Part shown: positions 8,121 through 62,700 of the stretch, in pieces
Position numbering within the stretch: the stretch's first letter is position 1
Layout: every line of letters starts with the position of its first letter
From: Ailanthus altissimus
Lineage: Eukaryota; Streptophyta; Magnoliopsida; Sapindales; Simaroubaceae
NCBI GenBank assembly: GCA_946807835.1
Contig: OX327686.1
Location: 2,542,001-2,606,000, forward strand
Direction: 5' to 3'
Length of the DNA stretch: 64,000 nucleotides
Notes under the pieces: generated by a model
Told to the model about the DNA's origin: nothing
What the model saw: the letters and a program-made list of their open reading frames with translations, nothing else
Database searches by the model: none
Translations under genes and position numbers: made by a program

Positions 8121-8704
8121 TTATAACATGTAACTAATTTTTAGGGCAACTAGAGCATACGGGTTGTAATCAATCTGGATCTTTCCGGCATCAGGGTTTG
8201 CGATCTTGGAGAAAGCTTCTTTAGAGAGATCAATGGTTCCTTGGCATCCTGCCGGACAGTAATCGACTATCTTAACTACAATGGTGCCACTGCGGCAAGG
8301 CTGTGGTATGCCTTGGTTTGTGGCGCCGGTGCACTTGATTTTGTATGATTTGTTACAAACTGCCCCTTTGTTCCATAATGCATCGCTTGCAGCGGCGATC
8401 ATGACCCCATCATCTTTAAATCCATTGCATGCCGAGGCTGTGAAAGGAAATGAACGTTAGTTCTCACAGGACCTCTGTAAGAAAGATAATTTATACGTTA
8501 ATTCTCACATAATTTGTTATCAATCGTCATGCCATACATATGTAGAAGCACTTGTTCGTTTGGCATATGGAATTATGGTATGATATACTCACGGACATAA
8601 GGAGGAGTATAGAAAGTCGCAGTCCCTTGACTGGCATAAACAGCCGACTTCAGGCATATTGCCACGGTCATTATCATCATCAAAACTTTCATGGCTACAC
8701 CCAT
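8121..8704 (-). CDS. EG45-like domain secreted protein (plant natriuretic peptide / p12 type)
   Basis: Two exons on the minus strand: 8704-8593 and 8437-8121, joined across a 155-base intron with a GTGAGT donor and an AG acceptor. The result is 142 residues. Residues 1-25 are a hydrophobic signal peptide (MKVLMMIMTVAICL core) ending near YAS. The mature part starts GTATFYTPPYVPSACNG and has the family's cysteine pattern, including VDYCPAGCQGTIDLS and the C-terminal PDAGKIQIDYNP block. Relatives are small apoplastic expansin-related proteins without a pollen-allergen domain, known as plant natriuretic peptides or citrus blight-associated p12, linked to water and ion balance and stress. A few extra residues (KISYML) follow the usual end, giving a slightly long protein. 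All codons are intact. Confidence 0.9.
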
Positions 8705-19565: not shown

Positions 19566-22500
19566 ATGAAATTTCTAAGCATTGTGGGTAATTCCTTCGG
19601 TTGTTCGGCTTCTGGGGAGCGTTTAGTTTCAGCTGCAAGAGATGGTGATCTGCAAGAAGCCAAGGCTTTATTGGAATACAATCCAAGACTAGCGAGATAT
19701 TCCACTTTTGGGGTTCGAAATTCACCTCTCCATTATTCTGCAGCTCAGGGCCACCATGAGGTATTCAATTATTTGATATGCAGAAAAAATGACATCTTGA
19801 ATGATCTATTGGCATTTTCTGAACTACATGTTTGCATATTTCTTATGGCATTGATTTATTTTTCTTCTTTCATGTCTATAGATTGTTTCTCTGTTGATTG
19901 AATCTGGGGTCGATATTAATCTGAGGAATTATCGCGGTCAGGTATAATAAGATTTATATACATAGAAACTTTTTATTATTCTGATCAAATATTTGGTTGT
20001 GATATTAGTTTTCTATGCCCTGAATATTCCAACTAGTTTCACATTCATGTGGATTTTAATTTCTTTACACCCGTGCTTTATTTATGATTCCAAAATCAGT
20101 TTATCATCACCATTGACAGTTGAGAATTCCTTTTTCATGTTGGTAAAACAGACTGCTTTGATGCAAGCTTGTCAACATGGTCACTGGGAGGTTGTTCTGT
20201 CCTTGATTCTTTATAAAGCTAATGTAAGGCATTTTACTATTGACCTATTTTCCCAGTTAATCATGAGAGTATTTTAAAGATTTGCAGATAATGTAATGAT
20301 AAACTTCTGGCAATCTGTTTTTAGATTCACAGAGCTGATTATCTGAATGGGGGCACTGCACTCCACTTGGCTGCTTTAAATGGCCACTCTCGATGTATCC
20401 GGCTACTTCTTGCAGATTATATTCCTAGCGTCCCCAATCTTCGGGACAGGTTGAGGAAAAAGTCGAGCAAGAATGAATCAATCTCAGAATTTGATGAAAG
20501 GTATTTTCATCTTAAGGCTCTCTTGCACTTAAGTGATCCTTCTTGAGTTTTTTGTTTGATTTTTCCTTTCTGCCATTTTGTTTGCACCAGTGCGCTCCAT
20601 GAAGTAATTAATAGAGCTGCTGATGGAGGCATAACTGCTCTGCATATGGCAGCACTGAATGGACATATTGAAACTGTGCAATTACTCGTGGACTTAGGAG
20701 CTTCTGTTTCTGAGGTCACTGTGGAAGACGGAACTACAATTGATCTAATCGGTACTCACTTTATCTCCTTCCTTTCTGAGTAATGACTTTTGTCCAATTA
20801 CATGTTATAGCAAATGTATTGTTGTTATTGGTCAGCATTAGAATTATCTTTAAACTTGAAAATTTTGTTCTGTATTTAAGTTCTTGACTCTTCTCTCCCT
20901 CTCTTTTCTCTTCCCTTAGTAACTCTTTGATAAATAAAGCCTCAGTTACTAATTTCTTATGGTTGCTCCTACTTCCCTTCAATATTTCTCTGTCGCATTA
21001 TGGGCGAGTTTATTCCCTTACATAAACTTCTTCTAATTTACATACTGACATTTTTACTCAAAGCCCTAGAAAATGGAAAAAAGAAAAAATGAACTTTACT
21101 TATTTGCTTCTCCTGCTCTACTCCTCAAATTGTGGGCAAGTGTCTGCAGAAGTGATTTGGTGTTCATTTCTAAATCTTTATTGGTTGATCACTGGAAGGA
21201 TGATGTAGGACATATCAGTTTTAGGTTTAGTTTAACTTGAAATGGGTGAAATGTTATCAGCATATATTTTAAGGATGTTGGGTTTATAGACATTTGATGG
21301 GTTTATTGAGCTGATATTCTTTTGATGGAAACTTTTAGTTGTCTGTTTTTCTGCTATTGAGAAATCAATAGCTCATTTATGGTTGGTGTGATTTTGACCT
21401 CCTTTTAACAAGAAAGCAACCTACACTTTTCTGGAAGATGTGTTCAAATAATTAACACTTCTTAAAGCTTCTTGATCCAAAATGTTCTATTCACTTCACA
21501 GTTGAATTGTTCATTATTAGTGCATGTCTTTGTCAATTGCAGGTGCTGGAAGCACACCCCTTCATTATGCTGCATGTGGTGGAAATGTACAATGTTGTCA
21601 AGTATGTTTATATAACTAATATCTGAAATTTGTTTTTTTTTTTGCTGTAATGTTTAAGTTGATGTTTTACAATTTCTGTATGTACTGTGGTCCAGCTTTT
21701 GATTACCATGGGTGCCAGTCTGACTGCTGAAAATGCAAATGGGTATGAATTTTATGTATCCTCTGCTCCTGTAATATTTAAAATTTATTGTTTCTGTACT
21801 GTGGATTCATTGGTTTGATCGTGTTTGTTTTAGCATAAAATTTTTTTTTGGGGGATTCTATTCGAGTTGGCTTCATGGGAGTTAATCATTTGACTTCTTG
21901 TGCCACTTGGTTTCTCTACAGATATCTTTTATTAGCTTAATTTTGTGATTTTGTGTGCGTATTTGAGGAAAAGATGGAAGAGCGACGTTTGTAATTTAGA
22001 AATTTTTTAGCTTTTTGAGAATTAACTGCAACAGCAGTCTACATTGTGGAAGGAACCCCTCTTAACTCCGAAACCCTTCGCTCCTTCCAGTTGGAACCAC
22101 AGAGCGTCCTAATTTGGAGTAGGAGACCAATTAGTTGCAGACGCTGGTAGTTTTGCATGTGGAGCGAGTTGAAATGGGGAAGAATTTAAGAATTTCTTGG
22201 CAATAGTGACTAAAAGACGAATAAGTAATAATCTATTGTCCTCTCTGTGTTCTGAATGACAGATTGATCGTGATGAATGACATGAGTAATGGTATGAATT
22301 TCCGAACCATTAAGCTGCTGCTTATCTTGGGTTCTAAATAACTGTCATCTTCTCCATTACATCTTGAACCTTCCCTTATCTTTCACCTGCGACTTTGCTT
22401 AGTTCCGTCACCGACACTCCGTGTAGAAGATCACTTAGTGATTCATCCTGTACTCAACAACTAGCTTAAGTGTAAATCAGGAATCCCATTTTATCTGCAT

Positions 22501-25500
22501 TACTTCTCTATGAAAAATTGGCCATATCGTCCCGCACCTAGTGTTGCTTAATTTGGTTAAAAATATGCTTGTTCAGTTACTGCTTGACCCAAACTTTCTA
22601 GTTATTGGGGTAAGCCCCAGTAGGAGTATTTAACGGTTGAAGACTCCCCCTTGTGTGCCAAAACACAACTGCCACAAACTAAACAAGAAATACCATGCTA
22701 TGTTATCAATTTACCTGAAAACTTGAGGTGTTAGGTAAGGACCTAGTAATAATATTGAAGCTCTAATAGTTAGAAATGTATTACTGATTGAACAAAAGTG
22801 GACAAAATAGGAGGCAAGATGAACAGCATTGAAGGGTACAGCAAGCTAGTCCTCATAATGATTATGGAGTTGAAGCATTTATGAAATCAAGTGTAGACCT
22901 GAATGAGTGATAACCAAAATTCTTTGATTCTTTTTTTTCACAAAGAAGGACTGAGGTTTTGAGGTATTAATATGTTATTCTAAATGGTGAACATGAAGAT
23001 CGTGTAATCCTTAGTTTATTTTCTTGGGGACTTAGATTAACACTTGTATCATCAAATGGAAATAGAGAAAATGATGAACAATTATGATAGTTGGACCTTC
23101 CATCCCATTGAAAGGATGATCCGTGCTCATAACTAATGTAATTAATAGTTATGACATTTCTTTCCATGTTCTATAACCGTCCCCTTTATTTGTCCATGCC
23201 TTCTGCTCCTTGCAACATGATTATACTAGTCATACTAACTTTCTTTGCTTTGTAATGGAATGTACTTTAAAGTTAGCTGTCTGTCTTCGAACCATGTGAT
23301 GCATGCACAGGTGTAGTGTGTAAATGTAGAACCTCCAACTCTTTGGTATCATTTAGTGAAGGCTTTTCTGGCCTCAATTTTTCCAAATTTTGTTTTTCTC
23401 TTAGTTAATGCTAGAGATGAGTACATTTAACTCCTTAAAAGATCAATTTGATTGTCTAATTCAAGCCATGGAATCCGTATACTTATAACTAACAAAATGG
23501 ATGTTGTAAAAAAGTTTGACAGTCACTAACAAAAGTTCTAATAAAGAAGATTTAATGTTATATCTCAGCTTATCTTTTCAAGACTTAATGAAACCTGCTG
23601 CATAGTGTTTCTGGATGCTTTATGATTTTGATATTGTCTCAATATATCCCAAGGCATTGGGAGAATGGTATTAAAGAGACAGAGGATATGCATTCCCAAG
23701 TTCTTTACATAGTTTCTTGTAAAAGGTCTTCTCGAGATATCAGCATTTTCAAAACTTCTTTCTTTTATTGGTTTAAAATAATTTTGATTTGGGAAATTGT
23801 AACCATGCCTCCATATGGTATAAAAAACAGATGCAAGATGTTGCTGAAACAACTTAACCTAAAAGTTTAAGCTATTAGGTAAGGGCCAACACTAATATTA
23901 AATTAACTCTAGCAAGGCCCCAGATGTGAAACATGGACGAGACCAGGATATGTGTGGATCTGATCGGACCAAGACCAAGATCAGGAATTGACTAGAAGTT
24001 GACTTCAATTGATTGAGACAGGGTGAGCTCATTGGGTTTCAAACATGAGAACTTACCTTTGATATCCATTTAATGAAGCCACTTGTCCCAAAAGCTTAAA
24101 CCATTAGGTAAGGGTCCAGTAAGTCAAGCTCAATATGAGACATCGTTGGATCAAGATCTGTTATTTTGTGATTTTCATGAAGATTCTTTGGGGATAGCCC
24201 TTTCTTTTTTCCTTAAGGTTAAGCATTGTGTTTCTTATGTGTTGATTAAAGGTAAAGGTGTTCACTCCTTGTAATCTTTCTTTTGTTCCAGATGGACTCC
24301 TTTGATGGTTGCTCGTTCATGGCATAGAACTGAACTTGAGGACATTCTTAGCACACAGCCAGAACGCCGATATGAAATTATTCCTTCACCATATCTAGCT
24401 CTCCCCCTTATGAGTATTGTCAAAATTGCTAGGTCAGTAAACTTTACCTTCCTCCATATTACTGTGCTAGCATATGTTGTACTCATGGCATATAAGCTTT
24501 GAGTGGTATTTTTCTTCTGATCAAACTTCTAAATGTGATTTTAGTTGCGCAATTAACATGATGCTCTGAACCAAAGGTTTTCTGAAATATGCTTTTGGAA
24601 CTTTTGTATCATCACAATTGCAAAACTGCAAATGAGAAACCGCTGAATTGCATGGAAGATCCCCTTCATTTTGATTCACGATTTTCGTCATTCATTTTCA
24701 GATAAGGTACTAATAGAATCTTAGGTATCTTATGTTTTACAGAATAGACAGAGCAGCTTTGTTGAACTCTGCAGATTTTGTACCCTATAAAGTTAATAAA
24801 ATACTCATATATTAAGCATTTTTTTCCAAACTTTTCAAACTCGCTCCATCTTAGCATGTCAAACAACAAATATTTGCATTGTATGTAGCCATGCAAAGAT
24901 GGAGCGAGTTTGAAAAGTTTGGAAAAAAATGCTTAATATATGAGTATTTTATTAACTTTCTATGTCTTATGTGCTTACTGGGTACATGATGAATTGAAGC
25001 TTAAAATGATATTCTTGTTGACAATGCCTTTTCTGTGGCATTTATGAAGACAACTTCTGGACAGTCTAGTTTTGCTTATTGTATGGTTAAAACTCATCTG
25101 TTTTGTGGTGATCTAACAAAAACCTTCCATTTCTCTCTCTCTCTCTCTCTCTCGTAGAAAATGCAGAGATAAATGACCAATATACTGTAGCAACATAATG
25201 ATGCACCTTACAACATACTCATCACGGGAAATGGATTAATTACATGTTAGATAAATTAAGCCATATATCTTTTATTTTGTCATTTTCAGAGAATGCGGAT
25301 GGAGGAATAGTGATTCTTTACCCACATGCCAAGATCCTTGTGTTGTTTGTTTGGAAAGAAAATGCACAGTGGCTGCGGAAGGTAAGTTACCTATAAGAAT
25401 ATAATTATCACTAATTTTCTTTCTCTCTCTTAAGATAGTTAAGATTCATGCAATTAAAAACTGTGAAGATGCATGGGGGATGGGAAAGATGATTTTCATC

Positions 25501-26845
25501 TATTGTATCTTAATATTTGTCATCTAGCATCCTGTGTTAAAGAAAAAACAGATGGAATCATTTTCTAGCAACCAATTATATCACACAAACCTAGGTAATG
25601 TGCACATGTAATTGGGCACACAAGCACAACAAAAACACACATTAACACTTGGCTCCATGGTATTAGCTGATGTAGGTGAGGGGTAGAACCAAAAGTAGTA
25701 CAGGAGTTTACCAGTTTGATGGCAGTATAGCATCTTGCGTTTTTGGTAGTTATTCTGTTAAAGGTGGCACCATTGTGGAATTTTATGGAAGTAGCAGCTT
25801 TGGTGCTGTCTAATAATGTAATAATGGTGCTGATGGTTGAAGTAGCATGGCATTTGGCAACATTAGTGGCGGTATGGATAGGTTTTCATTTATATAAATT
25901 ATATAAGAAAATTTAATTTGATTTCTCTGATGCAGCGTAAATTTTGTTAGTGTCTGCTAAATGATTTCTCTGTGAACATGAACACATACACAGAGGAAGA
26001 AGGAAAATGTACTGATATACATCCATAAATACAGTGTCTGCATCGAGGCAATTTGAGTTGAGCTCTTGCTTCTTTCACATTTATGCATTCCAAACTTGGT
26101 TTGCTACTTTGCTTAGTGACTCTATAAACTGGGGCTGAGCTTGGATTTTGATTTCTTTTCAATATAAATGAAGTTCAAACTGAGGATTGATTTTGTTGTT
26201 TTGCATCCTCACTATGTTGTACTCTCTTTTTTGACCATCAACACCTCTTATGTTAGTGATATTATAGCACCATTTCTATGTAAATCCTTTCACCATGCAG
26301 ACATTGAGACTATTTCTCATGGTGCAGGTTGTGATCACGAGTTCTGTACACAATGTGCCTTGTATCTCTGCTCTACTAACAATTCCTCCACTGTGGCTAA
26401 AGGGCCTGTCGGTTCAATACCTTGTCCACTCTGCCGGCATGGCATAGTTTCATTTCAAAAGCTTCCAGATACAAGACCAATTAAGGAGATTGCAAGAACA
26501 AGCTTGTCCCTGGCATTTTGCACCTGTTCTAGTGAGTTACAAGAGTCCACTTCACTAACAACAGCACTTTGCAAGCCGGGTTTCCATTGCACCCGAATTT
26601 CCCCTCTTAGTTCTTCTTTCCGCAGCCTAAGTTGCCAGAAGTTCCCGTCAATAAAACTGAATCCCAGCCTTTGCATGGGAGCTCCAGAAACTAGCTCTTC
26701 TTTAATTCCTTGCAACCGGAGTGTTCGAAACCACATGCTTCGATGTTCAAGATTGAACTTTAGGCGATCAGTTTCTAACACGGAGGGAAGAAGATCATGG
26801 TTCTCTGCACTCAATCAATATGTAACTACAGGCAGTGGGTGCTAA
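19566..26845 (+). CDS. XBAT32: Ankyrin-repeat RING E3 ubiquitin ligase, XBAT32 type
   Basis: Ten exons: 19566-19760, 19882-19941, 20152-20223, 20325-20500, 20591-20751, 21543-21601, 21696-21742, 24292-24432, 25290-25381 and 26328-26845. All have GT/AG borders and matching phases, giving 1,521 bases and 506 residues. The start [20 protein letters not shown] matches the family N-terminus; an in-frame ATG 12 bases upstream is less likely. Ankyrin repeats fill about residues 15-290 ([51 protein letters not shown]). A C3HC4 RING follows: C321, C324, C336, H338, C341, C344, C367 and C370. In Arabidopsis XBAT32 ubiquitinates ACC synthases ACS4 and ACS7, limiting ethylene and promoting lateral roots; the same role here is inference. 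Intron 7 is long (2.5 kb) and repeat-rich; intron 8 holds a large hairpin. Confidence 0.95.
21743..24291 (+). other. Long repeat-bearing intron 7 of XBAT32
   Basis: No exon was found inside. A short motif, variants of TTAAGCTATTAGGTAAGGG, occurs near 22724, 23868 and 24095, each followed by AGTAATA- or CAGTAAGTC-like sequence. This suggests fragments of one repeat family inserted in the intron. The stretch 23920-24080 (GATCTGATCGGACCAAGACC) looks transposon-derived, but I cannot assign it. Confidence 0.5.
24789..24959. repeat. 70-bp near-perfect inverted repeat in XBAT32 intron 8
   Basis: The left arm 24789-24858 and right arm 24890-24959 are reverse complements at 69 of 70 positions, separated by a 31-base loop. 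The transcribed intron would fold into a long, almost perfect hairpin. Arms of this quality imply a recent origin, either a foldback insertion or a template-switch inverted duplication. It could feed a Dicer-like enzyme; that is inference. Confidence 0.9.
25133..25153. repeat. (CT)n microsatellite in XBAT32 intron 8
   Basis: About ten uninterrupted CT units in the intron between exons 8 and 9. Confidence 0.9.
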
Positions 26846-27999: not shown

Positions 28000-28990
28000 A
28001 AATAGCACCTGGTCAGGCTCAGGAATTGTAATGATAATATTGCCATAGCTGCATGTTCATATCTCAGTCTTACGTAGGCAATTTAATTTCACTGCAACAC
28101 AAAGAAAGAGAGGCAGAGATTTTGCTTAATAATAATAATAATGTATTGTCACATCACAAAGCTTTGTGATATTTATCGAGATTGAAAGCAATGCTTGTGA
28201 AAATGGAGTAATGGCTCTTTCTCTATCTCCTTGCTTCAAAAAAGACGAAGAGTAGCAACTAATCATCAACAAATACCCTAGCCCCTACTCTTGATTAGCA
28301 AAATATAAAAGGGATCACAAGAAGCAAATCTCTGCTGTAGGATTTTATAATTACCTCGCAGCCACTTTACAAAATTTATGGACATGTACATGCATTGGAA
28401 TGTTATTTGAGCCACTCTCACACTAAAGAGTTGTTATGGTGAAGATTCAAAAGCATCTTCTGTTTACTTTTTGAAATCTACCCGGCCTTATGTAATCCAA
28501 TCATACAACTTTATGTAAACAAAATTGCAAATATTAGATCAACTACAACATAATAACGCAAGGGAAAAACTTTAATGCCATCTAGCTACTACTAGATTAT
28601 TAAGTTGAACAGATGCTAGTGATAGTAGCTATTCAATTTTTTTTTATAAAAAACGTGTTTGAGCTAGACTGCTTGCTACTATTTTTCTTCTTACGTACTC
28701 ATTGCGATCTACACCATTATTGAATTGAATCTCCCTTTTTTTTTCCAAAAAAAAAAAAAATCGAGTCCCCAGGCTTCTTCTTTTTCCAAATTTACGTAAG
28801 TGAGAGGGCAAAAGATGTGAGGCAGACGATAGAGACCAAGCCAGAAAGAGAAGGAGAGCGAGATTGATCACATACGACAGGAATGACAATTGCTTTGCAT
28901 CGATAATATTCTTCCAATCTCCGTTTACCTTTTGATATACTTGATAAATCTAGACAGCTAGACTTCTTCGTTTATATTAGGATTACAAAA
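28000..28990 (+). other. Partial copy of the TAS3 upstream region, without the TAS3 body
   Basis: Two parts are colinear with the flank of the TAS3 locus. 28000-28350 parallels 30880-31420 (shared blocks near GTCTTACG.AGGCAA, ATTGTCACATCACA and GAAGCAAATCTCTGCT). 28640-28990 parallels 33475-33815 (GAATTGAATCTCCCTTTT, TTCCAAATTTACGTAA, AAAAGATGTGAG, ATCTAGACT/AGACTTCT). Beyond 28990 there is no miR390 site or tasiARF. It is a duplicate of the promoter side only. Confidence 0.75.
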
Positions 28991-30779: not shown

Positions 30780-33700
30780 CAGTCCTCATTGCGGAAGCAG
30801 CAAACAAGCCAGTGTAAGAGTAACAGGCAATAAATACGTATGAACAGTCACCTTCAATCTCCTTTCTGAAATGGACTACTTAGAAACTGTACCAGCAGCA
30901 GCTCGAGCTGGTCAGCCATGGAATTATAGATAGTGAATCTTAGTCTTACGCAGGCAAATTTACAACTTTTATTAAAGAAGAAAGAGAGTGCTGATAGCAA
31001 ATAGCTAGCTTGACCATCTATTGTCACATCACAGAGCTTGTGATGATTACAAAGTTAAAAAAAAAGCTCTGGCAGTAAAAAGATCCTAACCCTAACATGC
31101 AATTGCCCCTACATGCTCATTCTTCACATTTCTCGCCACTCTCTGATCTTTTGGACCCGAAAGTGCATTGATCATCTCGACGTGACTGTTCAGTTTTTAG
31201 TGCACTTTCTGCTATGGAGCGTGAAACCAAAAGTTTCCTACTTTCAGTAATGTCTGCCAAATTGGAATAATTGCACTTTTTTTATCTCCTTGCTTCAGAA
31301 AATGAACAAACAAAGTCAGCAAGATTAGCCCCAGCTTAGCTCCTACTAGCTTTTAATGCAAAACAGTATTAGCTGGGAAAAAAACAAAAGCAGAAGAAGT
31401 GAGGAAGAAGCAAATCTCTGCTTATGGGAAGTGTTTTTTTTTTGCAAAGCTGTTTCGTGTTTTTTTTGCTCAATCCAGAAAGCATAAAAAAGATATTGTT
31501 TGGCAGTCTATCAAATTTTGGGGGTTTGTGTGCTCATTAGTCATTCGTGGTCTGATATTTGAGAAAATTTTAGCTTATGCCCTGTTTTGCACGCATTCCG
31601 GATACATGCACGAGCTCTTAATCACTCAGCTGTTTCTACGTAGAATAAATCTATATGGTTTTGTTTTGGAAAGATTTTAATATTATATAAATTAAGATAT
31701 TACAAGAATTATTGTTATTAAGTAAAAAATTATTGAAATAATATAAATATATCTTATTAACAAATGTCTGGATTTAAAACTTTTCTTACAAAGAAAGATA
31801 ATAATTTTATTATTAGAGATTATTTATAAATAATTTTTTTTTATCTTTATTAAAGACAGAAAGTCTTATCCTCACTCAAAAAAAATTTTACAATCTCAAA
31901 AAAAAAAAAATCTACCCAACGAAAACAAAAATACAACAAAACAAAAAATTTGCAAAAATACCCTTACACTTAATACACATTTACTGAAAACTACCAATAA
32001 TCTAACAAAGACCATAAACAAACTATTGAAACTGAAAAAACTCCAGTAAGCGGGAGCTAGCGGTGGGTAGAGATAGGGGTTAGCGGCTGGATCTACATGA
32101 GTTAGGGGCAAGCAACGGGAGGCGGTCGATTTTGATCTTGCAAGGATTGTAGGATCTCGGCCAAGGTCGATCGAAATAACGTCGGGGACCATGAACTCAG
32201 ATGGTCCATTGAGGAGACATGCCAAAGTTCGAAGTAAACCAGCCAAGGCGAAACCAATCGGAGAGAGCTGAGAAAGTTGGTGGTGGTTGAAGGCGCAACG
32301 GCTCCAGCGGCTTTCGAAGCAACATCACTTGGTCAAGGAAACTGCCATTATTGGTCGGCAACACCGTCAAAAAACAGAGTCTAGAACGTAAAATAAAAGG
32401 CAACAAAAAATTAAACTAAGAAAATGAAAAAGAAGGGAGAAGGAGATATAATAAAAATGGGGGGAAGGGGAAGAATTTTTATTCGTCGGGCCCCTCCCCA
32501 ACGACATGAGAAAGGAGGGAACGACACAGTTTTTCTTTTGAGAGAGTTTGAGAAAAAAAAACTAGGGTTTTAAAATTCTAATTTTCTTTTTAATAAAACC
32601 TAAATGGTTACGAGCATTGAGTCGTGAATAAACCAATCAAAATGAATTCACAACATCTTGTATTAAACTATTAATGTTCATAGTGACATATATTATATTC
32701 ACCCACCAATTACATTTTTTTTTTATACTTTTCAATGTCACTACAACTTAAGAGGTTCAAAGAAATGCTTTCCAAAACTTTCACACCATCAAAACATGTT
32801 CTTATTTATTTATGATTATCATTCTTCAAATCAGTAAATTTATTAGAAATAGAAAATTGGAAGAATAAAGAGAAAGATATATAATGAACCTTATCTGCAC
32901 CTAAAAAACGATTTTTTTTAAAATTTTCAAAATAACAAAAATAAATAATGATATTTTTTAAAGGGTACATATAATAATCGGATAATATCACATTATACAT
33001 TAATAATATTTTGACCAAACAATCCCCACAAGAAAAAAAAAATGCACCACTTTTATATTTAAAAAAATATTGAACTCTTAATTAAATCCAAAATTTAAAC
33101 CCTTAACCAAAATCAAGGAGATACGTAGAGCTATCACCGAGGCAAGCACTCTAGTGTGAAAATAAAATAATAATATTATATATAATTATTCTCAAGTATG
33201 TTTATTTAAAGCACATTTTAAAATGTGTTGTTTTTGACTAAAATATAATTAAAATAATGTTATTTTGACAAATTTAAATTTAAATACATCTGCATATAAA
33301 AATTATTGTACACATAATAAATTTGAAAAAAAATACAATATATATCAATTAAAAATAAGCAAAAATATAGAATTATAATTGTAAGGTGGGTATGAAGAAT
33401 ATACATAAGACAAATATTGAAAGTCAAAGTGGCCAGCCTCGTATACAAGAGTGGAAACGGTGAGAGCAAGACAGAGTCAGTCTGCTTGTTACGATTTTCG
33501 TTTCTACGTATTCATTGCAAACCCATACTACTATTGAGATTGAATTGAATCTCCCTTTTCCTTTTTTTTCTCAAAAAACTTCAAAATTCGAGTCCCTGTT
33601 TGCTTCTTATTCTTCCAAATTTACGTAACTGAGGAGGTAAAAGATGTGAGACGACAGATAATGATCAATGATGACAGCTGCTAATGTTATCAGTACTGAT

Positions 33701-33850: not shown

Positions 33851-33963
33851 TCATTTGGGTCCACGCCTTGCTTTAACTCTTTTTCTGAAACTAAACATAT
33901 ACTTTTGGAATGTCAGCTCCTTCTGTTTCTCATTTATTTCCCCTTGTCTTTTTTCCTTCCACC

Positions 33964-33974
33964 ACTATATAAAC
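33964..33974 (+). promoter_or_regulatory. TATA box of the TAS3 transcript
   Basis: ACTATATAAAC lies 85 bases before the first ATG and about 290 bases before the 5' miR390 site, which predicts a transcription start near 33995-34005. The placement is sequence-based only. Confidence 0.7.
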
Positions 33975-34061
33975 CTCCATCTATCTCCTCAACGAAGCAT
34001 CTCTTGTTTCCTTCTTATGTCACTTCATTCACTCACAGCAAAACCTTAATGTCACAACACA

Positions 34062-34259
34062 ATGCCCCTCTCAGCTCACTCCACGTTTGTCTATCTTTTT
34101 CTTTCTCTTGCTTGTGGCCATTGCTATTGCTGGTTTGCAGGAAGCTCCTTTCATTCGAATCAAGCTCATTTTCAATCTCTCATCATGATCTTGGCAAGGG
34201 AGTATGTGAATCTCCGATTCCATAACAAGATAAGAAAGAAAAAAATATCAAACCTTTGA
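34062..34259 (+). CDS. Short TAS3 ORF ending next to the 5' miR390 site
   Basis: A 65-codon frame starts at the second ATG of the predicted transcript and ends with TGA at 34257-34259, two bases before the 5' miR390 site. The first ATG (34049) opens a different frame of 58 codons that stops at 34225. In Arabidopsis TAS3, a short ORF ending just upstream of the 5' miR390 site lets ribosomes stall against the AGO7-miR390-SGS3 complex, and the position rather than the peptide sequence matters. The same geometry here supports a regulatory ORF. The peptide is hydrophobic early and basic at its end, with no known domain. Confidence 0.6.
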   Translation: MPLSAHSTFVYLFLSLACGHCYCWFAGSSFHSNQAHFQSLIMILAREYVNLRFHNKIRKKKISNL

Positions 34260-34261
34260 TG

Positions 34262-34282
34262 GGTGTTATCCTAACTGAGCTT
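34262..34282 (+). promoter_or_regulatory. 5' miR390 binding site (non-cleavable)
   Basis: GGTGTTATCCTAACTGAGCTT pairs with miR390 at both ends but is mismatched or wobble opposite miRNA positions 9-11, the slicing centre. That is typical of the TAS3 5' site, which binds AGO7-miR390 without being cut. Confidence 0.92.
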
Positions 34283-34341
34283 TTAATTCAAAGTTTCTTA
34301 CTTTTTTCAATTTTCTTATAATCTTTCTGTTTTTTTTTTTT

Positions 34342-34362
34342 TTCTTGATCTTGCAAGACTTT
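34342..34362 (+). ncRNA. tasiARF, register 5'D6(+)
   Basis: The 21-mer starts TTCTTGATCTTGCAAG and ends ACTTT. It equals the usual tasiARF except for T in place of C at position 8. It starts 126 bases (6 x 21) upstream of the predicted cut, exactly in phase. Confidence 0.92.
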
Positions 34363-34456
34363 TAAAGTTTTGTATTATCTTCATGGCTGCTCTCTATTCC
34401 GTTCTTGATTTTAATTTCCCTTCTCATCTTACTCAATCCTTCCATTTTCTTATTTC

Positions 34457-34477
34457 TCGTCTATTCCTCCTGAGCTT
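34457..34477 (+). promoter_or_regulatory. 3' miR390 cleavage site
   Basis: The site ends CTATTCCTCCTGAGCTT and pairs continuously with miR390 positions 1-17, with one G:U. Mismatches are confined to the miRNA 3' end. Cleavage is predicted between 34467 and 34468 and sets the siRNA phase. Confidence 0.92.
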
Positions 34478-34640
34478 CATGTAATGACACAATTTATGTT
34501 CACGTATCTTTGATTTGTATTGCTTTAGTTAATTTATGCAAATGTAACCCTCAGAAATGGCATAGAAGTTGTAATATTATTGTTTCTTTCTCTATATTTT
34601 TATAATAATTTTTTGTGCTTGTAATATTCAGAGTTGATTC

Positions 34641-35337
34641 TTAATTTAAAACCTTTTATTTTTCAGTGCCATTTACAACATGTATAACTAATGAAAGAAC
34701 ATTGATTAGAATCATTTTCATATCTCTTCAAAAAATCAATTAGCTCTTACAAAAGCCTAAGGTTTGCACTTTTTTCCTTGAAACTCTTTTCAAGCACTAG
34801 TTTAAAACTATGAAATGAACTGCAGAAGAAGGCATTGGCTATTTTTTTTTTTGAAAGAAGGCATTGGCTATTGAGATAAAAAAAATCGGAGAACAAAAAG
34901 AAAAAGCCACGTTTCTTATTTAACTTAGTACTTGTTTTTGCTTTGGTAATTCTACCGAGAAGGGTTTATGCTTTATATACTGTAACTGGATGCAGATAAA
35001 ATTCTAAAATACTTCTAGGATTTTTAAATTTTTCCTAAAGTTTATACTTATTACTGTTTCTTTGTATGTTTTTTTGGATCCTTTCACAAAATATATTCTT
35101 GTCGGTTGTTTCATTAATAGCTCTTAGATAAATTGCAAAAAATAACCTCAAATGTTAAAACTTGTAATTCAATTCGAACTCAAATGATCATGCGAATGCA
35201 ATGTCCTAAATGGCCACGAATAGTAAAACAACATATTATATTGCAAACACAAGAGAAGTTCTACTCTATTCAAATAAAAAGCTTTTAAAATTTCATTGGT
35301 TCAATCACCATTGAGCTAAAGTGTATTATTTTTAATT
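34641..35337. other. 3' flank of TAS3 and intergenic sequence
   Basis: AT-rich. A small tandem repeat of GAAGGCATTGGCTATT occurs at about 34829 and 34858. Nothing else recognised. Confidence 0.4.
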
Positions 35338-37058: not shown

Positions 37059-38445
37059 TAGGGATGATACAATTACCCACAAACTCTTAAATTCACTCGC
37101 ATTGAAAAATATTTGGTAAAATTTGAAGAGAATTTAGTATATAAAATTAAAATTCGTAACGAATTTGATACAAGTACGAGTTTGGTAAAAAATCTATTGA
37201 TACCCGCAACAGGTATCCACACATACTATATTTAAAAAAAATATTTTTTAGATAAAAATAAATGTTTTTGTATTTGTTATTAGCCTACATCAAAATGTCT
37301 AGATTTGGTTTGACGTCGTTCATTCCGTTTAATAAAAAATAAATAAAATTAGTTCAAAGGAATTAATGATTGTAATTGTATTTGTAATTGAAATTATAAT
37401 ATTTAATATAATTAAAATTAAAATTGAAATTAGAATTAGAATATTTGATATTTAACCTAATTAAAATTGGATTTGAAATTATAACATTTAAAATAATTGA
37501 AATTAGATTTGAAATGATAACATTTAATGTAATTGAATTTGAAATTGGATTTGAAATTAAAATATTTAACGCAATTGAAATTGGATTTGAAATTATAACA
37601 TTTAATGAAATCAAAATTGAATTTGGAATAATAATATTTAACATAATTGAAATCAAAATTGGAGTTATAATTATAATATTTTAATGTAATTGAAATCAAA
37701 ATTGAAATTAGAATTATAATATTTAAGTAATTGATGTCGAAATTAAAATTATAATTATAACATTTAACATAATTGAAATTGGAATTGGAATTGGATTTAT
37801 GACATTTAACGTAAGTTAAATTGAAATTATGACATTTAACGTAATTGAAATCAAAATTATAATTAGAATTATAATTTTTAACGTAATTAAAATATAAATT
37901 AGATTTGAAATTATAATATGTAACGTAACTGAAATTAATATTAGAATCAAAATTATAATATTTAACATAATTGAAATCGAAATTAGATTTAAAATTATAA
38001 CATTTAATGTAAGTGAAATCAAAATTGAAATAAAAATAAATATATTTAATGTAACTAAAATTAAAATTATGATATTTAACGTAATTAAAATCGAAATTAG
38101 ATTTGAAATTATAACATTTAACGAATTAAAATTAAAATTAGAATTAAAATTATAAATTAGAATTTAGAATTAGAATTGATATTATTTTAATTGCTATGTT
38201 TTATTGATTTCAATTAAATTAAGATTGTAATTTTTTTTATTATATTAATTAATTGAAAACCCATTTAAAATCCATAGATAACCTGTTGCGGGTTTAGTAA
38301 TGAGTACATACCCGCTAGTGTGGGTTTGGTAATAGAACTATAAACCCGTAATAGGTTTAGAAAGGATTTGATATTTTATTTTTTAAGCGAATGCGGATAT
38401 GAATTTAGGGGTATCCATACCAAACTCGATCCGCTGCCATCCTTA
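37059..38445. mobile_element. hAT-like non-autonomous element inside the MULE transposase
   Basis: The ends read TAGGGATGATAC (left) and TAAGGATGGCAG (right, reverse complement), matching hAT-type termini of the TAGGGATGGCA class. Flanks GCCTACCT (37051-37058) and GCTCACCT (38446-38453) agree at 6 of 8, an aged 8-base target duplication. MULE transposase homology stops at one side and resumes at the other, which confirms the insertion. No transposase is present; most of the interior is an AT-rich minisatellite. Confidence 0.75.
37365..38165. repeat. AT-rich degenerate minisatellite
   Basis: About 800 bases built from variants of TTTGAAATTATAACATTTAA and GTAATTGAAAT units. Frames stay open on both strands only because the repeat lacks stops in places, giving low-complexity I/N/F-rich peptides that I do not consider genes. 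Confidence 0.9.
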
Positions 38446-39200: not shown

Positions 39201-40738
39201 TGTAATACACGTGTATTACAATAATACACGTGTATTATATATATAAAGATTAGTGTAAGTTAAAAAAAGAAAAGAAAAGAAAATATGAGAAATTGAAGCG
39301 GTGGGTTTGTTATATATATATATATATATGTTCTGTTTTGCTTCGTTGAAAAGAAGCAACCGAAACCGAGAGAAGAGAAAGCAAAAGCCGGAAGGGAAAA
39401 GAGAGAAAAGAAAGAAAAGAAAGAAAGGAAAAAGAAAAAGAAAGGGAAAGGAAGAAAAAAAAAATAGAAAAGAAGAGAGAAACCGAGAAGGAAGAAGAAG
39501 AAAAAGAGAAAGAGAAAGAGAAAGAAAAAGAAGGAAAAGAAAAGAAAAGAAAAAGAAAGAAAATAGGAAATTTTAAGAAATTAGTTGGGTAGTCAGAATT
39601 ATACCCAGTGGTTTAGCGGGTAATAGTTTTACGATATTAGAATATTTAGATTTTAATATTTATAATACATATCGATACTAATGATGTATTTTTATACCCT
39701 ATGATATAGGAGGTGTGCCGATAGCGGGTAGATCTCAGAATCCAGACCCAGCTCAGGATTAGCGCATTTTAGTGAGTGGATAACTATATATATTTTATAT
39801 GTTTTCAATACAGCCAATTATGATTTAATTACGCGTTATTAGATTTAATTATGATTTATTTTAGACAGAAAAATATTTATACTATTTAGTAGATTCAGAA
39901 ATATTTTAGAATTTATTATAGTACAGTTTATAATTATGTTCAGTACAGAAATAATTATTTCAGAATAATTATGGTCACAATATTATATTGTAGTAGTTTT
40001 TGAACCACTATATGCGTACCCTCCCCTTTAATGTAGTTGCTCTGCGTATGCGTTAGACCAGTTTAGTTTGCTCTGCCCGAGCGATGTAACATTCCACCGG
40101 GTTAGACCAGCTTAGATCCCCCGCTCTGCCTGTGCGTGAGTTACTCCGCCAGGTTAGACCAGATTTTCCCTGGGTACAAGTTTGGTGTGGTTTTCAGTAT
40201 ATATATGTAGTACATGTTTCCAGAGTTATGTTACATATATTCAGTTTGATAATAGATTTTATGATAGTTTGCGCTTTCAGATTCCAGTACTATGTCATGA
40301 TTTTAATTTCAGTACAGATTTTATGACAGTTCATATTTTCAGTACAAGTTTATTGATTACTCAGTATACAGTTTTATGATTATTTTATCATACAGATTTA
40401 TACGTGTACAATACATATAAAGTATATAATATTTTTAGATTATGTCCACTCACTGAGCCACAAGCTCACCCTTTTTCCTATTTTCCCTATTTTTCCCAGG
40501 TTGTCACAGGAATTTGTGCAGTGTGATACAGTCATCACATTTTGAGGTTGGGCCAACGTGCATAGCTGCATAAGTGTTTTAGTCTATGTATTTGTATATG
40601 TTTTTGTATATTGGATGTACACTTTTGTTGAGGCAGGTAGCCTCATTGTATCATATGTATGAGTAAAGAGTATATTAGTCACATGTCATCGCAGGATCTG
40701 TCTCGATTCTCGAGGAGAGGTCAGGTCGGGTCCTGTCA
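39201..40738 (+). mobile_element. Solo LTR (1,538 bp) with ATCAG target duplication
   Basis: Begins TGTAATACACG and ends GGGTCCTGTCA, flanked by ATCAG at 39196-39200 and 40739-40743. It disrupts the MULE transposase: joining the flanks restores the T-W-M-S-D-K reading across the site. It contains a purine-rich GA tract (39360-39570) and a repeated GTTAGACCAG motif near 40050-40160. A homologous LTR lies in reverse at 45584-47101. The family is probably Ty3/gypsy by its look; there is no internal region to prove it. Confidence 0.92.
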
Positions 40739-43829: not shown

Positions 43830-44995
43830 TTAATTTAACTTTGTACGAGTAGCAAAATGCAATTGATTATTGTCGATATGGTTACACCATGTCTCCGTCT
43901 TCAAAAGATCATTGTAAACAATGTTGGTCTGCTTGCTGTTTCATATGGTGTTGAGCTTTTTCTACGTTTTCTTTCAGCAATCATATTATGACATTATGGT
44001 TTGTGTTGGTCTACTGTTGCAACTATAAAATCTTTACTATTACACAGGGATAGAGAATGAGCAGGTTGGCCATAACTATATCATTTGGAGTGAATTTAGT
44101 AGGAGAGTGCAAAAGCAGTGCTAAACCACCATTCTGCTAATGTCAACACAACTTAAACCAAGGCGATTTATGATGTAAGGAAGGTAATTTTCCAAGCAAC
44201 AATTGACAACCTCCGTCTGTCTGTTTGTCTATCTGTCTTGGGGTGGTAGTCGAGCTCACGCAGAGTTGGATGCCTTGTATCTAAAAAAGGGATATTCATA
44301 AACGTGTTGGTGAAGAATGAATCCATGTTGCTTATGAGTGTAGTAGAGATACCATATGTAAACAAAAGACATAATCTATGAAGAGTTTAGCCACCTCATT
44401 TGCTGAATACGGGTGACTTAGTACAATAAAGTGGTTGTATTTGTTAAGACGATCAAATACCACAAAAATGACATCTTTCTTATTAGAACAAGGAGGCCCT
44501 TCAATGAAATATCGCCCCAAACACGTGTGGGAATTAGTAGCGGTTGAAGTAGGCACAGAGAAGCAACATTTTATGGCTTATTGCATTGACATACATTACA
44601 TTCAATGACAAATTGATGAACATCTCACTTTAACCTTGCCCAATAAAAATTACACTTGATTTTATGGTAAGTTTCACCAATTGGGTTGTCGTGAATTTCA
44701 CCTATAACTGTAGCCTTGAGTGACAAAGTAGTGCTCAAGCCGAGCCATCCCTTGGATTGCAACTGGTTGTTTGACCTTGTATAACCACGCTTGCAATTTA
44801 GATAAAGTGTAATTGTATCAGTATTTGTAGTTGTGGATTCTATTGCCACTCTTCTTTTAAAGTCTCGAACCAAGTAGAAATAGGCGGTGACAAGGCCAAA
44901 AGTTGAGTACTAGAAGAATTTGTGGTTAAAGAATTCTTCCGGAATATAAGAAAGTGCATCGACTGCTTTGTTTTCCTTGTCACTATTGTTGACGG
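43830..44995 (-). pseudogene. Ty3/gypsy integrase relic
   Basis: Minus strand, from 44995 down: a KENKAVDALS RNase H end, an integrase zinc-finger remnant (EIHDNPIGETYHKIK, FYW near 44640), and the catalytic domain start FIEGPP...KKDVIFVVFDRLNKY near 44490. Then come H-P-K-T-D-R-Q-T-D near 44230, WWFSTALHSPTKFTPND near 44110 and the tail block LKENVEKAQHHMKQQADQH near 43960. It is broken by stops and frameshifts. Gag, protease and reverse transcriptase are missing. Confidence 0.88.
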
Positions 44996-45583: not shown

Positions 45584-47101
45584 TGACAGGACCTGACCCG
45601 AGCCCTCCTTGAGAATCGAGGCAGATTCTGCGATGACATGTGACTAACATACTCTTTACTCATACATATGATACAATGAGGCTACCTGCCTCAACAAAAA
45701 GTGTACACATGTGCTCCACTATATAAAACATATACAAATACACAGACTGAGACACTTATGCAACTATGCACGTTGGCTAACCTCAAAATGTGATGACTAT
45801 ATCACACTGCACAAATTCCTGTGACAACCTGAGAAAAATAGGAAAAAGGGTGAGCTTGTGGCTCAGTGAGTGGACATAATCTAACAATATCATATACTTT
45901 ATATGTATTGTACACGTATAAATCTGTATGATAAAATAATCATAAAACTGTATACTGAATAATCAATAAACTTGTACTGAAAGTATGAACTGTTATAAAA
46001 TTTGTGCTGAAATTAAAATCATGACATAATACTGGGATCTGAAAATTTGAAAGCGTAAACTATCATAAAATCTATTATCAAGCTGAATATATGTAACATA
46101 GCTTTGGAAACATGTACTAAATATATATACTGAAAATCACACCAAACTTGTACCTGGGGAAAATCTGGTCTAACCTGGCGAAGTAACTCACGCACAGGCA
46201 GAGCGGGGGATCTAAGCTAGTCTAACCCGGCAGAATGTTACATCGCTCGGGCAGAGCAAACTAAACTGGTCTAACGTATGCGCAGAGCAACTACACTAAA
46301 GGGGAGGGTACGCATATGGTGGTTCAAAAACTACTACAATATAATATCATGATCATAATTATTCTGAAATAATTATTTTTGTACTGAACATAATTATAAA
46401 CTGTACTATAATAAATTCTAAAACATTTCTGAATATACCAAATAGTATAAATATTTTTCTGTCTAAAATAAATTATAACTAAATCTTATAACGCGTAATT
46501 TAATCATAATTGGCTTTATTAAAAATATATAAAATACATATATAGTTATCCACTCACAAAAGCGCGCTAATCTTGAGCTGGGTCTGGATTTTGAGATCTA
46601 CCCGCTATCGACACACCTCATATATCATAGGGTGTAAAAATACATCATTAGTACTGATATGTATTATAAATATTAAAATATAAATATTCTAATATCGTAA
46701 AACTATTACCCGCTGAAATACATGGTATAAATCTAACTACCCAACTAATTTTCTAAAATTTTTTATTTTCTATTTTTTTTCTCTTTCTTCTTTTCCTTCT
46801 TTTTCTTTCTCTTCCTTCTCGGTTTCTCCATTTCCCTTTCTTTTTCTTTCTTTTCTTCTTCTTTTCTTTTTCTTCTTTCCTTTCTTTCTTTTCTCTCTTT
46901 TCTCTCTTTTCCCTTCCGGTTTTTGCTTCTTCTTCTCTTGTTTCTATTTGCTTCTTTTTAAACGAAGCAAAACAAAACAGCATGTATATATATATATGAC
47001 GGCACAACTTCATTCTTTCTTTCTTTTCTTTTTTTTTTCCTTTTTTTTAATTTTTTTTTATTGCCACTAACCAATATACATCAACTGATACGTGTATTAT
47101 A
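45584..47101 (-). mobile_element. Second solo LTR, reverse orientation, with AAAAC target duplication
   Basis: Homologous along its length to 39201-40738 but inverted. It is flanked by AAAAC at 45579-45583 and 47102-47106. The outer end on the minus strand reads TATAATACACG, so its first dinucleotide has mutated from TG to TA; the other end is intact. It has the matching polypyrimidine tract (46760-46960) and CTGGTCTAAC motifs. Confidence 0.9.
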
Positions 47102-49560: not shown

Positions 49561-52427
49561 TCATTGAGTTATCTGCTGTTGTTGCACAACCAAAAGTGAA
49601 TATCTCCTAGGAAGATCTTCCGTAACAAGAAAATCGCCCACAATTCCAAGCTCTGGGAACTCTCTAAATGTGTTAAGACCTGATGTTTGCGGAGTTTCTA
49701 TATTATTTCTTCTTCCAACTATAATAATATCGTAGTTTCCTGCTATTGATCGGATCTTTGACAGTGTTTCCTTACCATCATTCACCATCTCCACTATATA
49801 TTTCATTCGTGAGTCCAAATTGTTTTCAGGCTTAACACTCTTCAGCACCTCGGAATCAAGCGCTTTCTCCCAATTGGTGCCTATCTCGTCGCTCTTAGCG
49901 ATGAAACGGATAACAGTTACAGTGATGCTGTCATTCTTGCTCATGCGCTTGGCCAAAGTCAATGCTTCTCGATCATCGCTACCTCCGAAAAAGATCAACA
50001 AGAATTCTTTGGAAACAAACCTGCGTAGAGAGCCACGGTCAATAAGAATCCCTACGGAGCAAGGTGCTCGGTCAAGGACACAGCAGTTGAGGGCTCTTCT
50101 TTGACTGTCATCCGATTCAAGAGATCCGTCGGTGAACCATTGTCGATGGAAGGGAAGCATTACAATGGATGCTAGCTTGTCAAGCGCCAGCATGCATATA
50201 TCCTCATCCATGAGTTTGGGTGGAGAGATTGCTGTGAATGGATGTACATATGCAGTTCCGCAGTTCTTTTCTTCAAACAGTTTAAAAGAAAGGATGACAT
50301 TCTCAGAGTAGGATCGGTTAGAGACGGTTTTTGTCTGCAATTTGTGGGAGATAAAGATGGGTGCAGTTCTACCGCGTAAATTTATTAGATGAAGGACATA
50401 AACAGCAACAGGGTCTCCTGTGATCGGACACGATGCTTGAAGTAAATTAATAATGGCAGGAATGTTATCCGGTCTGTAAATGCAAGCAAGAATCCGCAGC
50501 TCTCCACTGGCTCCTGAATGCATGATGTTTCTCTTCTGATAGCCTGCATACTTTCTTGAAGGATCGTAAAGGAATTTAACAGGGATTGGCACAATCATTG
50601 CAGTCACTAGAATTGTAACAATTAAGAGCCCAAACATTTGTTCGGTTATAGTCTGCAATTGATTAAGGAACAAAAATAGTAAAGGCATTAGCTATTATTT
50701 TGGATTCCAATAAGCACATTAATGCATAGATTAAGTGTGTATTTCATCGAAGAATGATATAAAATACCTCAACTTCTCTGCTGATGTTATAGTGGGATAT
50801 TTCAATGATGCCCTTGGAAATCATGATCACGGCAAATGCTAAAGCATCCCTTTTGGGTACTTTGCATAACAATAGAGGTATTAATGCAGCGAGAAATTTT
50901 GCCAAGATCACTAAGGCAACAATGCACACAGTACTCTTCATCAGATCGTCATCAAGTTTGATGCTTGGGAGATCAGCTCTCATCGAGACTGTGGCTACTA
51001 TAAGTGGGGTGAGCAGACCTGAGAGAAATGGATCGATTTTTTCAACAAGAGCGGAGCCTAGCGGCGGTCCATCTGGTACTCCCAAGCCAATAATAAACGG
51101 ACCAAAGAGGACATACTGACCAAAGATGTTAGATAAAAAGGCACTACTAATTGCGATCATGATTATATAGTGAATGTACAAGCTTTTGACGGGTTTTCCT
51201 TCGGGTGTTTGTTTAACAATCCAAAGCATTGCTGGCCTCAAGGCATAGACTACTGCAATGATATATGCCACCATCAATGCCAGGTTCCATAACGAAAATG
51301 ACTTGAATATACTTCCAAACCAGATAGAAAAACTTAAAACAATCAGACCAGTCATGCTACTGACCAATGAAGAAGACAATCCTAATCGGCCGAGTTCCGA
51401 GTTTGTAATCTTCAGATCATTAATGACGCAAGCAATGACAGGAAATGGGGTAAGAGAATGTGTTAAAACTACTGCAATGAGCTTCGACTTTTGATTGTTC
51501 TTTAACCCCCAATACGTGCCCACTTTTTCCATGGCTGCTAGGCCGACTACGAAAGGCATCACCACGGTCAGTATTCCAGTAAAAAATGACTTTTTCCCTG
51601 TTTTTGTGATCATGCCAACATCCATTTTAACTCCCATTATAAACGTGAACAAAATGTAACCTAATTTTGCTGCCAGATCAAGTATACCAAGATTAGTTTC
51701 TGAAAATAGGATGCCTCCGTAATGGGGATTCAGCGAGAGCACTACTTGTCGCAGGATCAAGCCAGCCTGCAGGGACAGAAACAATCACAATTTTTTAAGC
51801 ACAAATACTGCCAAACGAATTCATATATAACAATATTGTATCCAAAAACTGAAAATTGATCGTTCTTACAGAAATGACTTTTTTTTTTAACCCTCTAATC
51901 TCTGTGTGTGTTTATGCTCATCTTTTCCTTTTCAATAGATTGAAAAATAAAAATGATCACTGATGGAAATGTATCATGTTTATTGGTGTGAAAACAGGTA
52001 CAGGCATGGATGGCTTCTAACAAATTGAACGTGATTTTTCATGTTAGAATGCAGAAAATTGACCTAACATATCCTATCTTCATTAGCAATCAGAAATGGT
52101 GAATGAAACCAAGGTAATTAATCAGCATAGGCCGATAAAAAAATTTTGGGATAGAAGAGACCATACAAGAATCTGAGAAGCAAACATTGGAATTCCTATG
52201 CGCTTGAGAAAATAATGAGAAGCTTGTGTCACATAGAAAACTGCAATGAACTGCAACTCAAGACGCGGAAACGTTGCCTCCAAGGGATGACGTCTGTTCT
52301 TCTCAATGGCCTGCCAAACGCCATTTGAATTAACAAATGGGGGTATGGGGATGCAAAATCTTCTGCTCATACTCACACTATACGTGTCATTTGCGTCATG
52401 CAAAAAGCCCAGGCCTGTTGTTGTCAT
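49561..52427 (-). CDS. CHX-family cation/H+ antiporter
   Basis: Three exons on the minus strand: 52427-52167, 51766-50768 and 50652-49561, all GT/AG and phase 0, giving 783 residues. I chose the ATG at 52427 (MTTTGLGFLHD) because CHX proteins have a short N-terminus before the first helix; an upstream in-frame ATG at 52565 is possible. Residues about 50-430 form a dozen hydrophobic helices of the Na/H-exchanger fold, with GPFIIGLGVPDGPPLGSALV and SKGIIEIS near the end. The hydrophilic C-terminal half has the CHX pattern LYDPSRKYAGYQKRNIMH and SGELRILACIYRPDNIPAII. Relatives move K+ or other monovalent cations in endomembranes or plasma membrane. The subclass (CHX3/4/15-like) is uncertain. Confidence 0.93.
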
Positions 52428-59717: not shown

Positions 59718-62700
59718 TCATATTTATAAATGATGCTATTGTTACAAACTATTATATAAATTATTATGTAAATTAAATGTCTAGTGATCTATATAATTTT
59801 AAATAATTAGGGAGTAGCCACAATATCCTTAATTATACAAAATTATATATTAAGTAGTTTAGGATCGCATATATAAATGACATTAATTATGGTTAATCAT
59901 ATTTATACGATTAATTAGGATGGAATATCAAATTATATTTCCTAATTTACCCACAGGGATTTAGAAAAGAAACATAATTTGATGATTTTATCATAAAGAT
60001 TAATAGGTCTAATTGAATTAAAACTTTTAGCCCACATGCAAGTTTTATGTCACTAGATTCATAATTTTTGGATCATAATTTATATAGATAAAACATGATA
60101 TATTTATAGAATTTTGTATGAATCTACTTGAATTAGAAATTTAACCTACAAGAAATTTTTCTGTCATTTGATTCATATTTATATAGCATGATTTACATTC
60201 ATAAAGCATGATAATTATTATTAGTCTCAATTTTATAACATAAGCATGTATGTTTGACTTTGTGCAATTGTACAACTTGTGAATTATTCTGATTTTAAAT
60301 GTGATATTCCCAAACTAAAAGTTGATAATTATAAAGATTGGAAGGAAAGAATCCTTCTTCATTTGGGGTGTATAGATATTGATTATGCTATACGAAAAGA
60401 TGAACCGTCAGCCATTACTGATACCGGCACTTCAATTGATATTGCTCTTTATAAACAATGGGAGCAATCTAATTGCCTCAGTTTGATGTTTATAAAGACC
60501 AAGATTTTTGTTGATTTAAATGATTTAGTCGATCAGCATAATAATGTTCGAACATTACTGATGGCTATTGATGAATAGTTTAAAACTTCAGATAAAGCAT
60601 TTGCCAACACATTGATTATGAAGTTTTTAAATTTAAGGCTCACTAGTATTAGAGGTGTGCGTGAACACATCATGCAAATAAGGGACATAGTGGCTCAATT
60701 AAAGACTCTTGAGGTTGAGATGTCTGATTCTTTCTTTGTGCACTATATATTGAACACCCTTCCACCATAATATGGACCCTTCAAAATATCTTACAACACA
60801 GATAAGGATAAATGGTCACTTAATGAACTCATGAGCATGTGTGTTCAAGAAGAAGTGCGGCTGGTGATGAAATTGGGTGAAAGTGCTTTTATAACAACAC
60901 AAAAAAAGAACACAAACAAAGCTAAACAAAAGGAAAAGGGCAAAATACTTGTTCAGTCTCCCCAATCTGACATTAAGAAGGAATTCAAGTGCTTCTTCTA
61001 TAAAAAATAAGGGGCATATAAAGAATGATTGCCTAAAGTTTTAGAAATGGCTTGAGAAAAAATGCAATTTAATCTCATTTGTTTGTTATGAATCTAATAT
61101 GGTTAATATTAATCATAACACTTGATGGATTGATTCTGGCTCTACAATCCATGTTTCGAATTTCTTGCAGGGTTTGCAAAACCTAAGAAAGCCAGTGGGC
61201 AGTGAGCAATGCATTTATTCTGGAAATAAGAACATTCACATGTGGAGGCAATTGGGACATGTTGTTTAACTTTAAGTACTGGTTTTGTTTTGTATTTAGA
61301 TAAGACATTTTATATTCTAAATTTCTCTAGAAATTTAATTTTTGTTTCAAAACTTGTACCTTTGGGATATTCCTTTAACTTTTCGAATGATTTGTTTAAT
61401 ATATATTACAAATCTAATCTTGCTAGAAATGGTACATTGTCTAATACCTCCTCCAGACGGTTCTCACCATTTATCTTGTCAGGGCAGCAGCACGACAACT
61501 TCTGATTTGTCTTGGTGAGAAAAATGTTGAAGAAGCCTAATGGCTATTAGCTAATGTGAAAGAAAAGTGAAAGTGAAAGAAACATTGGTGGTCAGTTTGG
61601 TCTCGTTTTCATGTTTTTTTTTCCAGATTTTTTTAAGGCCAAAACAAAGTGTTTTAGCTAATTGGCAATGATTAATGAATCAATTTTCAGTTCGAGTGAA
61701 CTCAAACCGAAACCTGATTAAACCGATTGGTTTAGCCAAAATTGAACCGATCAGTTTAAGGGCTATGTAACTGAACTGAAACTAGTTCATTTGAATCGGT
61801 GCCTAGTCCTAGTAACAGTGTCTGATCCCACTATTAACCAACATCACATGATTACAAGATTAAAGGCTGGAATCTATAAACCTAAGATCTTACTTACTCG
61901 GGTGGAGGGTAATCCAGAACATACACCAATAACAACTTTGGAAGCATTAAAGTTGTCTCAACGAAGAAATGCAATGAATGATGAATTTCAAGCTTTTTTT
62001 AGAAACAAAACCGAGAAACTAGTACCACCCAACCCTAATTACAAGATTGTTAGAAATAAATTAGTGTTTAAAGAAAAGAAAAATCCTAATGGTAGTGTAG
62101 CAAGAACCCTAATTACAAGATTGTTAGAAATAAATTAGTGTTTAAAGAAAAGAAGAATCCTAATAGTAGTGTAGCAAGAAACAAAACTTGGCTTGTAGCC
62201 AAAGGCTATAATTAGACTTCTGGTATAGACTATAAAGAAACTTTTAGCCTTGTAGTAAAAGCTAGCACAATGAGAATGATATTAAGTCTAGCTATAACAA
62301 AGGGATGGAGATTAAGACAGGTAGATATCAACAATGTATTTCTTAATGGAGATTTACTTGAAACTATGTATATGGAGCAACCTGAGGGGTTTTAGTAAAA
62401 GGAAAAGAAAGATATGTGAGCAAACTACAAAAGGCCTTGTATGACCTGAAACTGGCTCTAAAGGTATGGTATGATAAGTTGAAATTAGCCTTGGTTAAAT
62501 GAGGTTTTGGAAATGTGAAGTTTAATACATCTGCTTTTGTTAAGCAACATAATTTTGGAATCACTATAATACCAATGTATGTGGTTGATATTATAGTTAC
62601 AGGTGATGATGAGACTGAGGTACGAAAGGTGATAAATTAGTTGAATAAAAACTTTGCATTGAAAGAATTAGGTAAGTTGAATTACTTCATGAGGATAGAA

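Follow-up and report, generated by a model that had tools for sequence, protein, structure and literature searches.

A locus on the + strand of the window, the whole stretch of 64,000 nt that was analyzed, is very probably a TAS3 gene, perhaps of the Arabidopsis TAS3c lineage beside XBAT32; the gene content of the window points to a plant that is probably a eudicot. Judged by its sequence, it is almost certainly genuine and appears to be a further copy of a known gene family, an ordinary and well-formed plant TAS3, whose non-coding RNA is expected to be diced into small RNAs that tune the auxin response. Every feature of the TAS3 architecture that can be tested in a sequence was found and was in register, and recomputation gave the same coordinates for both miR390 sites and the tasiARF as the original prediction (Table 1). 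The original prediction was silent on the occurrence of a single tasiARF instead of a tandem pair, on a leader ORF abutting the 5′ site and on the TAS3c-like neighbourhood.

Table 1. Elements of the predicted TAS3 locus and the neighbouring gene, with positions in the window.
Feature	Position	Strand	Remarks
XBAT32-like ankyrin-RING E3 ligase gene	19566..26845	+	10 exons, 506 aa; neighbour, outside TAS3
TATA-like element, candidate core promoter	33966..33971	+	TATATA within CCACTATATAAACCTC; consensus match only
10-codon ATG ORF	34017-34049	+	
58-codon leader ORF	34049..34225	+	weak ATG context, T at -3
65-codon leader ORF	34062..34259	+	A at -3; longest leader ORF
20-codon ATG ORF	34259-34321	+	spans 5′ miR390 site
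5′ miR390 site GGTGTTATCCTAACTGAGCTT	34262-34282	+	score 6.0, rank 2 in window
tasiARF TTCTTGATCTTGCAAGACTTT	34342-34362	+	phase D6(+), between the two miR390 sites
33-codon ATG ORF	34383-34484	+	
3′ miR390 site TCGTCTATTCCTCCTGAGCTT	34457-34477	+	score 5.0, rank 1 in window

Target sites were rated with a plant target score, in which a mismatch counts 1 and a G:U pair 0.5, both doubled at nt 2–13 of the small RNA. When both strands were scored, the two miR390 sites, which lie on one strand, were the two best of the window. Both exceed a score of 4, the usual cut-off. The 5′ site has mismatches to miR390 at nt 9 and 10 and G:U pairs at nt 11, 17, and 19, which confirms the predicted mismatch of the slicing centre; binding without slicing is expected at this site. 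The 3′ site is paired at nt 1–17 (G:U at nt 13) and unpaired at nt 18–21. Its description as well paired holds for the seed and the slicing centre but not for the last four nucleotides, and for the same reason the term “perfect” is a little strong. The predicted cut in the 3′ site between 34467 and 34468 sets the 21-nt register, and the cut positions of the two sites are 195 nt apart. The third-best miR390-like site (score 7.5) is located at 20530–20550 on the same strand, inside an intron of the XBAT32-like gene, and is probably a product of chance.

Counted back from the predicted 3′ cut, the start of the tasiARF is reached after exactly 6 × 21 nt (offset 0), in agreement with the six steps of the original prediction; relative to the 5′ cut it is out of register (offset 6). 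With the Arabidopsis ARF3 target site, which was taken from a primer printed in an excerpt of PMC4565019, it forms 18 Watson-Crick and 3 G:U pairs without a mismatch, resulting in a score of 2.0. This is the best match to the ARF3 site in the window, followed by one with a score of 6.5, and equals the values of the Arabidopsis D7 form and a longan primer sequence (both 2.0), the D8 form reaching 1.5. The tasiARF differs from the D7 form at 5 of 21 positions, and the variant TTCTTGATCTTGCAAGACTTT was not found in the searched literature, in which the spellings were those of the TTCTTGACCTTGCAAGAC form. A 21-mer at 44768–44788 also has five differences from the D7 form, but its pairing with the ARF3 site is poor (8.0). 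The tasiARF is single, since among the 196 start positions from 34262 to 34457, tested on both strands, the one at 34342 alone brings the score for the ARF3 site under 10. The next best candidate in this interval, at 34402–34422, is another TTCTTGAT start and could be chance or a decayed tasiARF; with a score of 10.5 and a position 3 nt off phase, it was rejected as a second, degenerate tasiARF and taken as chance.

Single words of these kinds do arise in AT-rich DNA. Of 200 simulated 64-kb strands, 18 contained a 21-mer with at most five differences from the D7 form of the tasiARF and 3 one with at most five differences from the miR390 complement. An arrangement of miR390-like and tasiARF-like words by chance deserves next to no weight, however, because order, strand, spacing, ARF pairing and phase are jointly vanishingly unlikely. 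In 6 Mb of sequence simulated with the dinucleotide make-up of the window, one miR390-like site was found at a score of 6 or less, one at 5 or less, and no ARF-pairing 21-mer at 2.5 or less. The expected joint number of about 1.7e-12 gives the order of magnitude only, as it is a product of one-event rates with the rate of the ARF match, none having been seen, set to a floor of one. Five tasiARF-like loci on IMG/VR contigs were considered as relatives and rejected, the best miR390-like sites within 300 nt having scores of 7.0 to 13.0; 0 of 5 is flanked by a good miR390 pair within this distance, which also argues against chance. Chance is thus not a credible cause of two sites with an in-phase tasiARF between them.

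The transcript of the predicted TAS3 gene probably starts near 34000, downstream of the TATA-like element. A repeat of about 160 bases (28666–28821 and 33479–33650, 76% identical) has its second copy just upstream of this promoter region. That the locus has only two short overlapping ORFs, as originally stated, is correct for leader ORFs of more than 50 codons (58 and 65 codons), but shorter ATG ORFs of 10, 20, and 33 codons exist on the + strand. The stop codon of the 65-codon ORF is separated from the 5′ miR390 site by 2 nt. An ATG ORF of at least 60 codons stops 0–10 nt upstream of about 0.5% of the window positions on both strands, so the position of this stop deserves attention but would not decide the matter by itself. 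The A at position -3 of the 65-codon ORF would suit a short protein-coding gene with incidental small-RNA sites downstream. We regard such a gene as a negligible alternative, as neither leader ORF matches a Pfam family, the 65-codon ORF stops exactly at the start of the TAS3 5′ site and none of the TAS3 elements is disrupted.

In TAS3, ribosomes meet the AGO7-miR390 complex, according to an excerpt of PMC5207768, and by analogy the stop of the 65-codon ORF so close to the 5′ site would be fitting for such a meeting. Mutations of the ORFs of TAS2 and TAS3 lower the amount of tasiRNAs, as stated in part of a review (PMC6572396). In TAS3a, TAS3b, and TAS3c lacking most ribosome-binding regions, small RNA abundance was drastically reduced, but secondary ta-siRNAs persisted, as far as described in an extract of PMC12127299. 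Because ta-siRNAs persisted after these deletions, the leader ORF may be dispensable, and a strict need for the 65-codon ORF should not be assumed.

While the two sites, the tasiARF, the register, and the leader ORF can be read directly from the DNA, the course of siRNA production proposed here follows known TAS3 biology. The RNA would begin near the inferred start and the 65-codon ORF would be translated, its ribosomes stopping against AGO7-miR390 on the unsliceable 5′ site. AGO7-miR390 would slice the 3′ site at the predicted position, the 5′ fragment would be made double-stranded by SGS3 and RDR6, and DCL4 would dice it from the cut in 21-nt steps. The sixth step would release the tasiARF, which would silence transcripts of the ARF2/3/4 type. 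The same architecture could have been inherited by a TAS3 pseudogene or by a duplicate that is almost silent, in which case the locus would yield few or no siRNAs. Such a copy would be in line with the presence of only one tasiARF, with its T at nt 8 instead of the C of the Arabidopsis form and with the unpaired end of the 3′ site. In addition, Arabidopsis TAS3b and TAS3c form minimal siRNAs in the wild type, according to the same extract (PMC12127299). This explanation is nevertheless quite unlikely, since leader ORF, register and ARF pairing are all intact, whereas drift should have damaged one or more of them.

The search against Rfam, which may hold no TAS3 model, resulted in no match at the gathering score in the whole window and in none at E ≤ 1 over 33900–34700. 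The predicted RNA fold of 34000–34540 is unremarkable (z = -0.64), as 27 of 100 shuffled sequences fold as well or better.

Several further structures were observed in the window. Its ends, 1–4283 and 59718–64000, are 100% identical over 4283 bases, with a period of 59717 and reaching both window edges exactly. The record may be circular and wrapped, or the repeat may be an artefact of the assembly or a tandem copy; in the last case, TAS3 may occur more than once. Pieces of a plant cation/H+ antiporter (CHX) gene are located on the - strand at 49561–51784, and a fragment of this region was found at 4240–4642 with 82% identity. An inverted repeat (39264–40738 and 45584–47038) with arms of about 1.5 kb, which are 88% identical and about 4.8 kb apart, is possibly a transposon. 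Tandem repeats that have diverged form a block at 37366–38256, in which both strands contain long open frames. Finally, an ORF on the - strand at 8121–8456 contains a double-psi beta-barrel (DPBB_1) and is presumably expansin-like or plant-natriuretic-peptide-like.

The nearest recognized gene upstream of TAS3 is the XBAT32-like gene, which is transcribed from the same strand and ends 7.4 kb upstream of the 5′ miR390 site. All 9 of its introns have GT-AG borders, and its protein contains ankyrin repeats and an XB3/XBAT31-type RING in Pfam. This protein shares 68% identity with Arabidopsis XBAT32, a value that serves as a lead only. Two ORFs between this gene and TAS3 (28644–28949 and 31896–32324) match no Pfam family.

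In Arabidopsis, XBAT32 is At5g57740 (excerpt of PMC6873611) and TAS3c is At5g57735 (excerpts of PMC4680215 and PMC3502350), so that their adjacency is read from the locus numbers only. The locus number of TAS3c is thus next to that of XBAT32, and here an XBAT32-like gene lies upstream. Arabidopsis TAS3c has two miR390 sites of which the 3′ site is cleaved and the 5′ site is not, as given in a passage citing Howell 2007; the present locus also has two sites, for which the same behaviour is predicted. In cultivated strawberry, PHAS21-48, a 21-nt PHAS locus triggered by miR390, coincides in part with a gene model that is annotated as XBAT32; a table of PMC9454143 gives the putative function of this locus as NULL and not as TAS3. 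The predicted miR390 trigger and the XBAT32-like neighbour of the present locus are comparable to these features, as far as a table entry allows this comparison. Within the searched literature, which omits most subscription papers, TAS3 and XBAT32 were named together only in this publication. The XBAT32-like neighbour, the At5g numbers and strawberry PHAS21-48 together suggest a conserved TAS3c/XBAT32 neighbourhood, and the present locus perhaps belongs to this lineage.

A third, eudicot-wide TAS3 type linked to XBAT32 can be imagined, in which a single tasiARF at D6 is combined with a 5′ site that cannot be cleaved and with a leader ORF stopping right in front of this site, but we consider it rather doubtful. 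If it existed, the number of tasiARFs and the cleavability of the 5′ site would evolve separately, and the position of the ORF stop would be under selection. TAS3 is among the most widely conserved small-RNA genes of plants and is overlooked by protein-based annotation, and the present copy is recognizable from its sequence alone. With the stop of the leader ORF, the mixed class traits and the XBAT32-like neighbour, it offers starting points for following TAS3 lineages through synteny and for tests of the way in which ribosome position matters. The accepted mechanism of TAS3 is unchanged by this locus.

Long and short TAS3 genes are distinguished in an excerpt of PMC3446319, and the same division is made in PMC3835848. 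In the former, the long apple TAS3-1 combines two tasiARFs with a mismatch of the 5′ site at nt 10, whereas the short apple TAS3-2 genes lack a mismatch at this nucleotide, contain a single tasiARF and leave about 190 nt for phased siRNAs; short genes are described there as absent from Arabidopsis. Cassava TAS3c also contains a single tasiARF, with 190 nt and a 5′ site that is cleaved (PMC4124141), and tea TAS3c and TAS3d have one tasiARF each (PMC10673657). Like the long genes (Arabidopsis TAS3a, apple TAS3-1, olive and tea TAS3a), the present locus has a mismatched slicing centre in the 5′ site, including nt 10, and its phase would be set by the 3′ site. However, the long genes of Arabidopsis, olive and tea carry two adjacent tasiARFs at D7 and D8, whereas a single one, at D6, was found here. 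This single tasiARF is shared with the short genes apple TAS3-2 and cassava TAS3c, and the 195 nt between the cut positions are close to the approximately 190 nt between the miR390 sites of the short class. In contrast to nt 9 and 10 here, the 5′ site of apple TAS3-2 has no mismatch at nt 10, and that of cassava TAS3c is cleaved and shows near-perfect pairing around this position. Because one tasiARF and 195 nt resemble the short class, yet the mismatches at nt 9 and 10 resemble the long one, the locus is filed by its sequence as a putative TAS3 in neither of the two classes.
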